From: Rossellomorea vietnamensis
GTDB lineage: Bacteria > Bacillota > Bacilli > Bacillales > Bacillaceae_B
DNA length: 64,000 bases
Assembly (NCBI RefSeq): GCF_025398035.1
Contig: NZ_CP104558.1
Coordinates: forward strand, 1-64,000
Direction: 5' to 3'
Shown: piece after piece, positions 17,737 through 21,876 of the stretch
How positions within the stretch are numbered: the first letter of the stretch is position 1
Layout of the letters: the number at the start of each line of letters is the position of its first letter
The notes under the pieces: generated by a model
Seen by the model: only the letters and a program-made list of their open reading frames with translations
Told to the model about the DNA's origin: nothing
Database searches by the model: none
Translations under genes and position numbers: made by a program

Positions 17737-18627
17737 ATGTATCCTCCCATTACATTGAAAGAGTTTCAACAGGAGCATGGGGAACTGATCACCAAACATA
17801 TGGTTGAGGCCGTAGAAGGCCTAAAGATCCCTTCTGTATTAAAGGAGGCCATGATTTATTCCCTGCAGGCAGGTGGAAAAAGGATACGTCCCATCCTCCT
17901 GTTGGCAGTGATCCGGACGTTCAATCAAGACACGAGGCTGGGACTCAATACAGCGTCCGCCCTTGAAATGATCCATACATATTCTTTGATCCATGACGAC
18001 CTTCCTTCCATGGATGATGACGATTTAAGGCGAGGCAAGCCGACCAATCATAAAATGTTCGGGGAGGCAGCGGCGATTCTTGCAGGCGATGGTCTCTTGA
18101 CATATAGCTTTCAGCTCATTGCAGAAGATTCAGCCTTAACCACTGACCAAAAGGTGAAGCTCATCGCACTTCTCGCACGGTGTGCCGGTCCAGAAGGGAT
18201 GGTCGGCGGACAGGTTGCCGATATCGAAGGGGAGAATAAGCGGTTAACTGTACAGGAGCTTGAAAACATTCACGTTCATAAAACAGGGAAGTTACTCATA
18301 TTCAGCGTATTGGCCGGCGGAATCATTTCAGGGGCCTCAGAGAATGAACTTGAGCTGCTTGAACGGTTTTCGTACCACATAGGTCTCGCGTTCCAAATTC
18401 AGGATGATATCCTCGACATTGAAGGATCTGAAGAAATGATTGGTAAACCGGTGGGGAGCGACGAATCGAAACATAAGAGTACGTATCCGAGCCTTTTATC
18501 CATGAAAGGTGCGAAGGAGAAGCTTCAATTTCATCTGGACGAGGCGCTGACGGCCCTTACATCTATGCCGGTGGAATCCGGTCTGCTGGCAGAAATTGCC
18601 CGTTTGATCGTTTCCCGGAATCATTAA
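17737..18627 (+). CDS. ispA: Farnesyl diphosphate synthase (short-chain polyprenyl synthase)
   Basis: A 296-residue prenyltransferase that condenses isopentenyl diphosphate with allylic diphosphates to make farnesyl diphosphate. The first aspartate-rich motif is at Asp87-Asp88 (HDDLPSMDDDD), the second at Asp223-Asp227 (DDILD), and GGKRIRP lies near residue 46. The product supplies undecaprenyl phosphate, quinones and, in some extremophiles, other isoprenoids. dxs, the first enzyme of the precursor pathway, lies just past the OLE RNA and oapA. A strong promoter starts immediately after the stop codon. Confidence 0.95.
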   Translation: MYPPITLKEFQQEHGELITKHMVEAVEGLKIPSVLKEAMIYSLQAGGKRIRPILLLAVIRTFNQDTRLGLNTASALEMIHTYSLIHDDLPSMDDDDLRRGKPTNHKMFGEAAAILAGDGLLTYSFQLIAEDSALTTDQKVKLIALLARCAGPEGMVGGQVADIEGENKRLTVQELENIHVHKTGKLLIFSVLAGGIISGASENELELLERFSYHIGLAFQIQDDILDIEGSEEMIGKPVGSDESKHKSTYPSLLSMKGAKEKLQFHLDEALTALTSMPVESGLLAEIARLIVSRNH

Positions 18628-18639
18628 AACATTCTATAT

Positions 18640-18669
18640 TTGAGCTAGTGATTTAACATATGTTATAAT
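18640..18669 (+). promoter_or_regulatory. Sigma-A-type promoter of the OLE RNA
   Basis: TTGAGC at 18640-18645 and a perfect TATAAT at 18664-18669 are 18 bases apart, placing transcription start near 18676. It lies 13 bases after the ispA stop. Confidence 0.75.
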
Positions 18670-18675
18670 ACGATT

Positions 18676-19275
18676 AGAATAAATTTTGGGGTGGTGCAGT
18701 ATTCTAGTCAGTCCACCAATCCTGAAGGTGGGCCTAAAAATCCACTAAAGGGCACATCGATGAAGTTCCTGGAATTGGCTTGAGGCGCCCAGCTTTGGGT
18801 CATATCTGGGAGTAAGGCTTGAGGGCGATCCACAATGGCATGTGGGCGTTGACCCGCGAGCCGCGGAGGCTTTGTTTCTTATGCTGGCTTTAAAGCATAT
18901 GCAATAAGAACAAAGTATGAACCTGCGATGTGATGATTCACTAGCAGCGTAGCCTGCCTTGAGTGAAGAGAGAGGGGATTATGGTTACAGGGTACACATC
19001 AGTTGGCCATTGATATGTGCTTTTTCGCCCATATGAAATCCTCTTTGCAAAAGAGGCTAAGGATTGTGTTAAGGACTGTTGAGGAAAACTCCTAGACTGT
19101 TCATATCGGACATATAAAGAGGATTATAGTGCGGACTAAGTGGTAATCCAGTCTAGCTTGTGGTGACGCGGCTAAGTCGGGTTTAATGGGAAACCGCCGG
19201 TATGGCAACATCCGGTACCTGATTGGGAAAACCTACTGGACCTAAGCTGCAATTTTTACTCTTTATATGACCCCC
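18676..19275 (+). ncRNA. ole: OLE RNA (ornate, large, extremophilic)
   Basis: A roughly 600-base gene-free stretch, unusually G-rich for this genome, between ispA and a gene for an OLE-associated membrane protein. That position and size are the hallmarks of OLE RNA, known from extremophilic Bacilli and Clostridia. Local helices are visible: CTTTGTT-T-CTTAT (18870-18882) with ATAAG-A-ACAAAG (18904-18915) enclosing ATGCT/AGCAT; CCTCTTT at 19040 with AAAGAGG ending at 19056; and ACACAT...ATATGT near 19002-19018. The RNA forms a membrane-located ribonucleoprotein with OapA and affects tolerance to cold, alcohol and Mg2+ in its best-studied host. Boundaries are approximate: the 5' end is taken from the promoter, the 3' end from the last G-rich block before AT-rich sequence. 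The call rests on context plus structure, not on an alignment. Confidence 0.87.
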
Positions 19276-19329
19276 CAATTACATATAACCAAACTATTTA
19301 CACAGTAGAAACGGTGTGTTTAAACGATA

Positions 19330-19962
19330 ATGAATGAAACGATGAAAAACTCAATAAAATGGAGTGTCAGCATTGCCGTTATCACATTTGTGTTAGCGGC
19401 TATTTTTTCAGTTACGTCCAATATGGTTTTAAATGGGGTCGCATGGTTTACAGGGCTCGTAGTCGTGTTGATCATCGTCTTCATCGGAATCTTTTTTGAT
19501 ATGCTGGGAATCGCTTCAACGGCAGCTGATGAAACCCCTTTTCACGCCATGGCGGCCAAAAAGGTATACGGAGCGAAATATTCAATCAAGATTGTACGGA
19601 ACGCAGATCGATTCGCAAGCTTCTGTAACGATGTGATCGGTGATATTTCAGGGATCATAAGCGGGACCGCATCAGCCATTGTACTGGTCCAACTGGCGGT
19701 CTCCTTTCACCTCAAGGGAGGGTCCTTGAAGGAGTATATCGTAAGCGTAACCCTGACAAGTATCATCGCTTCCTTGACAGTCGGAGGCAAAGCGCTTGGA
19801 AAAACGTTTGCTATCACCTATTCTAAGGATATAATATTTAGAGTTGGTAAAGTTCTACAATTTCTTGAAGACCGATTTCATATCGTCCTGATCAAAGATA
19901 AAAAAGACAAAAAAGATAAAAACAAGAAAAAAGGTTTTAAACGTGAGAAACAAAATATTTAG
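19330..19962 (+). CDS. oapA: OLE-associated membrane protein OapA
   Basis: A 210-residue integral membrane protein with hydrophobic segments at about residues 9-30, 35-57, 105-128 and 133-150. A very basic Lys/Asp-rich tail follows (KDKKDKKDKNKKKGFKREK at the end) and could contact RNA. An adenine-rich start and no clear Shine-Dalgarno sequence (only a weak GGTG well upstream) suggest poor or regulated translation. OapA homologues bind OLE RNA directly and take it to the membrane, where the complex is linked to magnesium homeostasis and to cold and alcohol tolerance. The gene lies 55 bases after the RNA and 21 bases before dxs, in the arrangement described for other OLE-bearing species. Confidence 0.9.
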   Translation: MNETMKNSIKWSVSIAVITFVLAAIFSVTSNMVLNGVAWFTGLVVVLIIVFIGIFFDMLGIASTAADETPFHAMAAKKVYGAKYSIKIVRNADRFASFCNDVIGDISGIISGTASAIVLVQLAVSFHLKGGSLKEYIVSVTLTSIIASLTVGGKALGKTFAITYSKDIIFRVGKVLQFLEDRFHIVLIKDKKDKKDKNKKKGFKREKQNI

Positions 19963-19983
19963 TGATGAAAGTGAGTGGACCCC

Positions 19984-21876
19984 ATGGATCTATTATCAAT
20001 AAAGGAGCCTTCTTTTCTAAAGAGCATGTCGAATGAACAATTAGAAGAGCTCAGCCAAGAGATTCGCCAATTCCTGATCAAGAATCTTTCCAAAACCGGC
20101 GGTCATATTGGTCCAAACTTAGGGGTGGTCGAATTAACCGTTGCCCTTCATAAGCATTTCTCCAGTCCAAAAGATAAAATCCTTTGGGATGTTGGTCACC
20201 AATCGTATGTCCATAAGATATTAACCGGCAGGGCCTGTCAGTTTGACACCCTCCGTCAATATAAGGGATTATGCGGTTTCCCGAAACGGAATGAAAGTGA
20301 GCATGATGTATGGGAAACCGGTCATAGTTCCACTTCATTATCGGCAGCCATGGGTATGGCGATCGCGAGGGACGTCAAGAAAGAAGATTCATATATTATC
20401 CCGGTGATCGGTGATGGTGCCTTGACTGGTGGAATGGCACTTGAAGCACTCAATCACATCGGTCATGAAAAGAAGGACATGATCGTTGTACTGAACGACA
20501 ATGAAATGTCCATCGCTCCGAATGTTGGGGCCCTTCACAGTGTACTTGGCCGTTTGCGTACAGCCGGCAAATACAACTGGGTGAAGGATGAAATGGAATA
20601 TATCCTTAAGCGTATCCCTGCTGTCGGCGGCAAATTAGCCAGTACAGCAGAACGGGTGAAGGACAGCTTGAAGTATTTATTCGTTTCCGGAATGTTCTTT
20701 GAGGAGCTTGGTTTTACATACCTTGGACCGATCGATGGACATGATTATAATGATCTGGCTGAAAATATTCAATATGCGAAGAAAACGAAAGGACCCGTCC
20801 TTTTACACGTGATCACCAAAAAAGGAAAAGGGTTTCATCCTGCTGAGTCTGATAAAAAAGGAACCTGGCACGGTACCGGACCTTACAAGATCGATACCGG
20901 GGATCTGATCAAGCCCGTGAATGCGCCTCCTTCATGGAGTGGCCTTGTGAGTGAGACGGTCAGAAGGGTTGCCCGTGAGGATGAACGGATTGTGGCCATT
21001 ACCCCGGCAATGCCGGTCGGCTCAAAACTTCTCGGATTTGCGGAGGAATTTCCTGATCGGATGTTCGACGTGGGGATTGCCGAGCAGCATGCCACAACGG
21101 TCGCTGCAGGTCTTGCCACGCAGGATATGAAACCGTTCTTAGCCATATACTCTACCTTCCTGCAACGGGCGTACGATCAGGTGGTTCACGATATTTGCCG
21201 CCAAAACTTAAACGTCTTCATCGGGATCGACCGTGCCGGATTGGTCGGAGCCGACGGGGAAACCCATCAAGGGGTATTCGATATCGCCTTTTTAAGACAT
21301 TTACCGAATATGGTGATCATGATGCCAAAAGACGAGAATGAAGGGCAGCACCTTGTCAATACGGCACTTCAATATAATGACGGTCCCATCGCTCTGCGTT
21401 ATCCACGCGGTAACGGGTATGGAGTACCGATGGACGGGGAACTTACAACGATCCCGATTGGAACGTGGGAAATATTGAAACAGGGAACAGATGCAGCGAT
21501 CCTGACTTTCGGAACGACGATCCCGATGGCCATGGAAGCGGCAGCAGACCTTGAAAAACAAGGACTTTCGGTCCGGGTTGTAAACGCACGTTTCATCAAA
21601 CCGATGGATGAGATCATGCTGAAAAGGATCCTGGAAGAAGAAATGCCTGTGCTGACGATCGAAGAAGCGGTTCTTCAAGGCGGTTTCGGAAGTGGTGTTC
21701 TTGAATTCGCTCAGGAACAGGGCTTCCATGACGCCGTGATTGACCGGATCGGTATTCCTGATTACTTCATCGAGCATGGCAGTGTGAAGGAATTATTGAA
21801 TGAAATCGGTATGACAAAAGAAAACATAGTGGATCGCATTTTAACGATCACACCAAAAAAACAAAAAAGGGCTTAA
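19984..21876 (+). CDS. dxs: 1-deoxy-D-xylulose-5-phosphate synthase
   Basis: Thiamine diphosphate enzyme (630 residues) joining pyruvate and glyceraldehyde 3-phosphate, the first step of the MEP isoprenoid pathway. GDGALTGG (residues 143-150) starts the cofactor motif. The pyrimidine-domain segment [10 protein letters not shown] and the loop [15 protein letters not shown] are intact, and the C-terminal transketolase domain is complete. The ATG at 19984 gives the family N-terminus MDLLSIK; a GTG nine bases upstream is an alternative. The stop overlaps the next start as TAATG. Confidence 0.96.

Follow-up and report, generated by a model that had tools for sequence, protein, structure and literature searches.

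What does the interval between ispA and dxs of Rossellomorea vietnamensis encode, and what sets the relative amounts of its products? A preliminary description of the first 64,000 nt of contig NZ_CP104558.1 (this whole stretch is referred to as the window, and positions are numbered within it) had placed a complete OLE RNA locus in this interval, consisting of a promoter directly after ispA, a gene-free structured RNA and the membrane protein gene oapA, and had supposed that the output of RNA may greatly exceed that of OapA, since oapA has no good ribosome-binding site. OLE RNA is, to our knowledge, among the largest bacterial RNAs for which no biochemical function is known. The OLE membrane ribonucleoprotein (RNP) is established in Halalkalibacterium halodurans, where an abundant RNA of ~600 nt is found at the membrane and stress phenotypes involving magnesium, cold and ethanol are associated with the particle. 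The features of the Rossellomorea locus that are discussed below are as follows.

17737–18627, + strand: ispA (polyprenyl synthetase), the upstream neighbour (PF00348, E-value 1e-60)
18640–18669, + strand: putative ole promoter, sigma-A type, TTGAGC-18-TATAAT with a TG-extended −10 (scan 10/12; motif recurs in congeners)
18675–19290, + strand: OLE RNA, full length (RF01071, 517.3 bits, model positions 1–616; pair counts on 30 sequences)
18686–18695, + strand: 5′ arm of the terminal helix, UUGGGG[U]GGU (unpaired in the Rfam structure line)
19004–19009, + strand: self-complementary hairpin loop UGGCCA (invariant in 30/30 rows)
19270–19278, + strand: 3′ arm of the terminal helix, ACCCCCCAA (pairs with 18686–18695)
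19310–19319, + strand: conserved box AACGGTGTGT before oapA, a candidate weak Shine–Dalgarno sequence (alignment of 30 congeneric loci)
19330–19962, + strand: oapA, a CNNM-like membrane protein of 210 aa with a basic tail (PF01595, 19.8 bits, below the cut-off of 28.4)
19375–19400, + strand: hairpin GCCGTTATCACATTTGTGTTAGCGGC in oapA codons 16–24 (−12.9 kcal/mol; 10 pairs)
19401–19409, + strand: T-rich tail TATTTTTTC, codons 24–27, directly 3′ of the hairpin
19975–21876, + strand: dxs, the downstream neighbour (PF13292, E-value 2.6e-121)

The RNA is OLE RNA. When the whole 64 kb window was searched with cmscan, RF01071 was the sole family found (E-value 7.9e-149), with a score far above the gathering score of 50 and a match to all 616 positions of the model, and the RNA is present as a single copy in the 4.52 Mb genome. 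That the match might be due to chance, or to a decayed relic, is refuted by its score and completeness and is further contradicted by the presence of OLE in nearly all congeners (see below), so that we regard this explanation as having a negligible probability. The Rfam structure has 156 pairs with a counterpart in the window; 144 of these are standard and 12 are not, and three more fall on gaps. Pair statistics were compiled from an alignment of the OLE sequences of 30 of the 33 positive congeners (29 of the rows being distinct; three loci were left out), using the Rfam structure together with one terminal helix added in this analysis. In this alignment 91.9 % of cells are paired, compared with 89.6 % in 500 column shuffles, and changes on both sides are seen at 28 pairs, three of which belong to the added helix, compared with 15.9 in the column shuffles; when the pair partners are slid, the paired cells fall to about 39–45 %. 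The added terminal helix comprises nine pairs, three of them changed on both sides, with 89.3 % of cells paired over the 30 rows, and in the subclade of the window a bulged U seems to take the place of one pair, with a shift of register. Since the published OLE model, in the part of PMC12265935 that sets out its stems, already includes a stem, P1, within the domain to which both RNA ends belong, this helix, although supported, is not claimed as new. The UGGCCA loop is probably the P9 loop–loop dimer contact described in the same source (PMC12265935, in the passage on dimer contacts). The preliminary description had thus named the RNA correctly: the covariance-model search over 18676–19275 returned an overwhelming match, the conserved helices are supported by pair changes, and its gene-free segment indeed contains no ORF of at least 50 aa overlapping the OLE RNA on either strand.

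The locus is ordinary as an OLE locus, and its RNA is an ordinary member of the family, since OLE is common in both the genus and the order. Of the 36 genomes in the genus, 33 carry it (the family-level set consists of the same 36 genomes); sampling gave 66 positives among 101 genomes of the order (where 15 of the genomes lacking a match are not itemised) and 111 among 149 of the phylum. An OapA match accompanies OLE in the 33 positive congeners and is found in none of the three that lack it (G011, G012 and G013), and a check of 15 loci found OLE in all eight with OapA and in none of the seven that have no OapA or only a fossil of it. A search for RF01071 in 14 named control genomes gave no match, and Bacillus subtilis is listed among the controls. 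The gene order ispA–ole–oapA–dxs is shared by all 20 OLE-positive loci that were fetched at the order level, out of 63 outside the genus. No literature pairing Rossellomorea with OLE RNA was found.

The putative promoter of this unit is conserved. A promoter scan alone is weak, with five found versus 3.3 expected in shuffles; inspection of the congeners shows that every one of the 30 loci read (of 33) has, upstream of OLE, TTTGAG together with TATAAT (28 loci) or TACAAT (2 loci), with the hexamers separated by 16–18 nt. At the order level, TTGA and TA...T hexamers lie 15–19 nt apart in 16 of 20 loci, a loose pattern in which some rows may represent the wrong hexamer. An internal dxs promoter (TTGCTA-16-TATAAT, 19808–19835) in the 3′ part of oapA was considered and rejected, as it occupies the same place in only one order-level row (L241) of those compared. 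There is no classic ribosome-binding site before oapA; a GGTG lies 13 nt upstream of the ATG, inside the box AACGGTGTGT. We note that the AACGG of this box could pair with a CCGTT in the 5′ arm of the hairpin at codons 16–24, and might in this way act as an antiterminator.

The DxxxD motif of OapA is present as DVIGD at residues 101–105 and is invariant in nine of nine OapA proteins. The four best PDB folds for an AlphaFold2 model of the protein (mean pLDDT 76.3) are three archaeal CorB chains and a bacterial CNNM/CorC domain, although the best E-value is 0.022 and none is 0.001 or lower, and a comparison with the PDB sequences gave no match up to an E-value of 10. The protein has the DxxxD signature of OapA, a CNNM/DUF21-like membrane protein, together with a weak CNNM match and a fold model whose nearest structures, at the E-values just given, are archaeal CorB and a bacterial CorC transmembrane domain; the relation of OapA to CNNM proteins is already published (PMC11332333, in its treatment of OapA). 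The difference here lies in the anatomy of the gene alone, codons 16–27 of which overlap an RNA element. The OapB (YbzG) gene is located upstream of infA and its product matches PDB entry 7k9b, 'OLE-associated protein B' (E-value 5.6e-32), while OapC (YbxF) matches YbxF structures (3v7e, E-value 1.3e-27) and has Gly15, the residue at which a change to aspartate arose in a suppressor strain (as given in a passage of PMC9723947). The preliminary description therefore stands as regards the placing of a promoter directly after ispA (10 of 12 consensus positions, with the motif in every congeneric locus read), the poor ribosome-binding site of oapA and the basic-tailed protein of 210 aa encoded by the ORF at 19330–19962 after the RNA, and the homology check that it suggested finds genes for both OapB and OapC at other places in the genome.

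Since all its parts are encoded, we infer that OapA, OapB, OapC and OLE RNA form the known membrane RNP in this organism. OapB and OapC genes are also present in all three OLE-less congeners and so are not diagnostic of the OLE RNP. The likeness to the H. halodurans particle (RF01071; PMC11332333 and PMC12265935, in the portions dealing with its components) extends to the match over the full 616 positions, the three Oap genes, the self-complementary loop and the adjacency of oapA to ole among isoprenoid genes. What is added to that system here is the conserved promoter and a terminator-like element in oapA, both described across the order, and the present genome differs in also having two CNNM-CBS-CorC proteins, of 422 and 457 aa.

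The OLE locus itself is of a known kind, and what is new here is the terminator-like element in oapA codons 16–27, which the preliminary description did not mention. These codons double as GCCGTTATCAC-N4-GTGTTAGCGGC + TATTTTTTC (19375–19409), and they have the form of an intrinsic terminator, with a hairpin of −12.9 kcal/mol that is followed at once by the T-run TATTTTTTC. Both the hairpin and its tail are conserved beyond the needs of coding. When the window oapA was subjected to 500 synonymous randomisations (using, here and for the other genes, each gene's own codon use), one was as stable and none matched both the stability of the hairpin and the T-richness of its tail. The stability is reached by no more than 5 of 500 randomisations in 47 of 50 oapA genes, the remaining three being L237 (13/500), L238 (12/500) and L236, which has no hairpin, and the element is kept at the level of synonymous codons in 49 of the 50 OLE-positive loci. 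Codon counts were made on 24 rows, 20 from the order and four congeneric. A single codon is used in 0.86–1.00 of these rows at codons 16–18 and 21–27 and in 0.83 at codon 20, the corresponding values for codons 28–38 being 0.37–0.64; codon 19, the third base of which is in the loop, is free (0.38). The tail codons are ATT in 18/18 cases, TTT in 24/24 and TCA in 18/21. Excess synonymous homozygosity is 0.56 for codons 16–27 without codon 19, compared with 0.037 in the rest of oapA (23 rows, with L236 left out), and none of 100,000 random codon sets is as high. Codons 3–14 are also somewhat conserved synonymously, the best 12-codon window clear of codons 16–27 having a value of 0.26 over six scored codons.

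The embedded hairpin is also present in two further loci confirmed as OLE-positive, from the named genomes of Ornithinibacillus caprae (L057) and Piscibacillus halophilus (L097), and all 10 of its pairs are standard in 51 embedded copies. Pair 5 is a T.G wobble in 51 of 51 copies even though a GCA codon would give T-A, an invariance that hints at sequence-specific recognition, and the mismatch at pair 8 is T.T in 47 copies, T.C in three and C.T in one. No second copy of the hairpin within three mismatches was found in the window, nor was any found in 100 shuffles. Two results from the window count against reading the element as a terminator: when folded in full, the region 19290–19425 does not exceed its shuffles in stability (z −0.66), and a simple terminator scan did not report the element. 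In its GC-rich hairpin and immediately following T-run it resembles the intrinsic terminators and attenuators of Gram-positive leaders, for example that of the ykoY riboswitch, with which the terminator passages of PMC10898510 are concerned, but it differs from these in being located inside the downstream coding sequence and in being nearly invariant, and it has no more than a possible antiterminator in the box before oapA. No terminator in oapA was found in the OLE literature at the level of titles and the beginnings of abstracts, a scope that does not take in the founding OLE papers, and we therefore make no claim of priority.

The hairpin has also outlasted oapA. We read 22 ispA–dxs gaps without OLE or an intact oapA, belonging to the three OLE-less congeners, to ten of the 35 OLE-less genomes of the order and to nine named loci drawn from 37 that have ispA and dxs but no OapA match. 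It is kept in eight of these gaps, those of G011–G013 (a single lineage), G048, G071, G072, Bacillus sp. FJAT-49736 and Bacillus thermotolerans, with the absence of OLE in the last two having been checked at the fetched locus alone; a looser search for the hairpin in all named loci gave no further case. Each of these six lineages without oapA in the gap retains 10/10 hairpin pairs, with the T.G of pair 5 replaced by T-A in FJAT-49736 and G071, and five of the six retain the T-rich tail. The hairpin without a T-run in G072 and the absence of the hairpin from the other 14 gaps both count against a terminator. The losses in G011, G048, G071 and G072 are probably separate, since each of the families also holds OLE-positive genomes. 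In G011 the hairpin lies in a 44 nt stretch that is identical to oapA at 41 of 44 positions (score 73, shuffle maximum 28), and the gap (L048 2371–2713; also L047 and L049) contains the ole promoter motif and two decayed oapA scraps between ispA and dxs. The promoter piece in G011–G013 scores 17 in local alignment, which is not above the shuffle maxima of 23–30, and it is accepted as a putative remnant on its motif, spacing and position. A genome of another family, G073 (L218), whose congener G112 is OLE-positive, has an oapA fossil without the hairpin in its ispA–dxs gap (score 118, compared with 31). No remains of the OLE RNA above the level of shuffles were found in the gaps of G011–G013 or G073.

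The exceptional locus L236 (genome G058), in which the embedded hairpin is missing, has instead AAGCTTGCGCTTAGCAAGCTT followed by TATTTTAC, starting 7 nt past the OLE match and situated between OLE and oapA. With this intergenic hairpin counted, all 20 order-level loci have a terminator-like structure in the first 260 nt beyond OLE, compared with 8 of 80 block-shuffled sequences. The same search at the phylum level found such a structure in 10 of 29 loci (one of 30 being left out), compared with 9 of 116 shuffled sequences. The element of the window was not found in the 30 more distant phylum-level oapA genes, all of which were placed by alignment, and this also argues against a terminator; in three of these 30, the first-helix codons contain a hairpin at least as stable as −10 kcal/mol together with a T-rich tail. 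Two of the three, L269 and L276 of one distant genus, have in common a GC-rich hairpin of another sequence that overlaps the start of oapA and precedes TTTTTTTA; it was equalled by one of 60 synonymous randomisations. In Salisediminibacterium halotolerans (L058) a hairpin with a weak T-tail lies in the intergenic stretch before oapA.

We think it likely that full-length OLE RNA is made from its own promoter, works together with OapA, OapB and OapC, and owes its abundance relative to OapA to most transcription stopping at the hairpin in oapA codons 16–27. Transcription would start at the ole promoter right after ispA, and RNA polymerase would cross the OLE RNA together with the terminal helix that closes it, enter oapA and mostly halt at the hairpin. 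The primary transcript would then extend from 18676 to about 19408, some 733 nt, and its 3′ end would be trimmed to yield an RNA of roughly 600 nt. OapA would be encoded by read-through transcripts only. An embedded terminator of this kind, with mostly short transcripts and some read-through, would fit the processing of the OLE RNA 3′ end that has been published for H. halodurans (PMC11332333, in its account of that RNA). Termination at this point would imply a high ratio of RNA to OapA and damped read-through into dxs. The excess of OLE RNA over OapA supposed in the preliminary description is a plausible proposal, for which the oapA hairpin would be a stronger sequence-based reason than the weak ribosome-binding site alone, and the amounts of both RNA and protein may depend on this hairpin.

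A plain terminator would not need so invariant a sequence, and this makes it a live, if rather unlikely, alternative that the conserved block is a binding site, either an RNA hairpin for a regulator or for an RNase involved in OLE 3′ maturation, or an imperfect DNA dyad for a dxs repressor. A binding site would agree with near-invariance in place of free covariation, including the pair 8 mismatch and the pair 5 T.G throughout the 51 copies, and with the hairpin of G072 that has no T-run. It does not account for a T-run that is fixed at the codon level and a T-rich tail that persists in five of six lineages without oapA, or for the sole OLE-positive locus of 50 that lacks the element having another hairpin and T-rich tail between OLE and oapA; a DNA dyad, moreover, would have half-sites that differ at two of 11 positions. 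A much less probable explanation is that codons 16–27 are conserved for the sake of the protein, as its first transmembrane helix, or as a signal for slow translation, with the hairpin being incidental. The segment AVITFVLAAIF is well conserved as protein too, but third positions are fixed where they are paired and vary freely at codon 19 in the loop, the hairpin is still found in gaps that contain no oapA frame at all, and L236 has a similar protein stretch with no hairpin.

If oapA does contain a conserved terminator, this would provide a regulatory logic for the ole–oapA unit, and synonymous mutations would offer a simple handle with which to alter RNA and protein separately. A more speculative extension, which we put forward tentatively as a possibility that may well prove wrong, is that the start of oapA has a dual use, as a membrane helix and as an attenuator that sets the number of OLE RNAs per OapA, perhaps being opened by ribosomes or by a component of the RNP such that the ratio adjusts itself, and that in several lineages this element remains after the loss of OLE to control dxs and hence isoprenoid synthesis. 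Control of dxs by the element, if true, would explain the place of ole in this operon.

The three OLE-less congeners provide a view of what accompanies the disappearance of the RNA. A neighbour tree of 14 genes from 23 of the 36 congeners and three outgroups places G011–G013 inside the OLE-positive genus (support 0.99), and we conclude that OLE was lost in them. Each has seven CNNM genes above the cut-off, compared with two to four in the 33 OLE-positive congeners (two in 21 genomes, three in 11 and four in one; a CNNM gene split by a frameshift in G033 was counted as one). CBS domains are present in both CNNM proteins of the present genome and in all seven of G011, and CorC_HlyC in eight of these nine, the exception being one member (353 aa) of a tandem pair in G011 (G011:C4:572585-574990) that is found in all three OLE-less congeners. 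In a comparison of 42 proteins from 11 genomes, three from G011, the tandem pair and one other, were left without a close counterpart. An anticorrelation of OLE with MpfA has already been published, with rare defective OLE genes also mentioned (PMC11332333, in the passages on its survey), and G011–G013 represent one loss event fitting this pattern, to which a loss with a visible scar is added here.

Whether the additional CNNM genes are linked to that loss is a separate matter, and it is a strong possibility, a little short of being probable, that they are simply lineage-specific content. There is a single loss event, four of the seven G011 proteins group with proteins of OLE-positive congeners (support 0.96–1.00), the difference in CNNM number is not significant within the seven families that hold both states (p 0.25), and 4 of the 66 OLE-positive genomes of the order have five or six CNNM genes. 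Against this stand the contrast of seven genes in each of the three with two to four in the other 33, the order-wide means of 2.97 in 35 OLE-less and 2.14 in 66 OLE-positive genomes (p 7.5e-5 without correction for kinship), and the agreement in direction with the survey in PMC11332333, so far as its passages on MpfA go. With their scar and their seven CNNM genes, the OLE-less congeners offer a natural system for asking whether MpfA-type transporters take the place of the OLE RNP. We also note that the split CNNM gene of G033 (G033:C1:504384-504978) extends over two frames, and may be either a recent pseudogene or a sequencing error.
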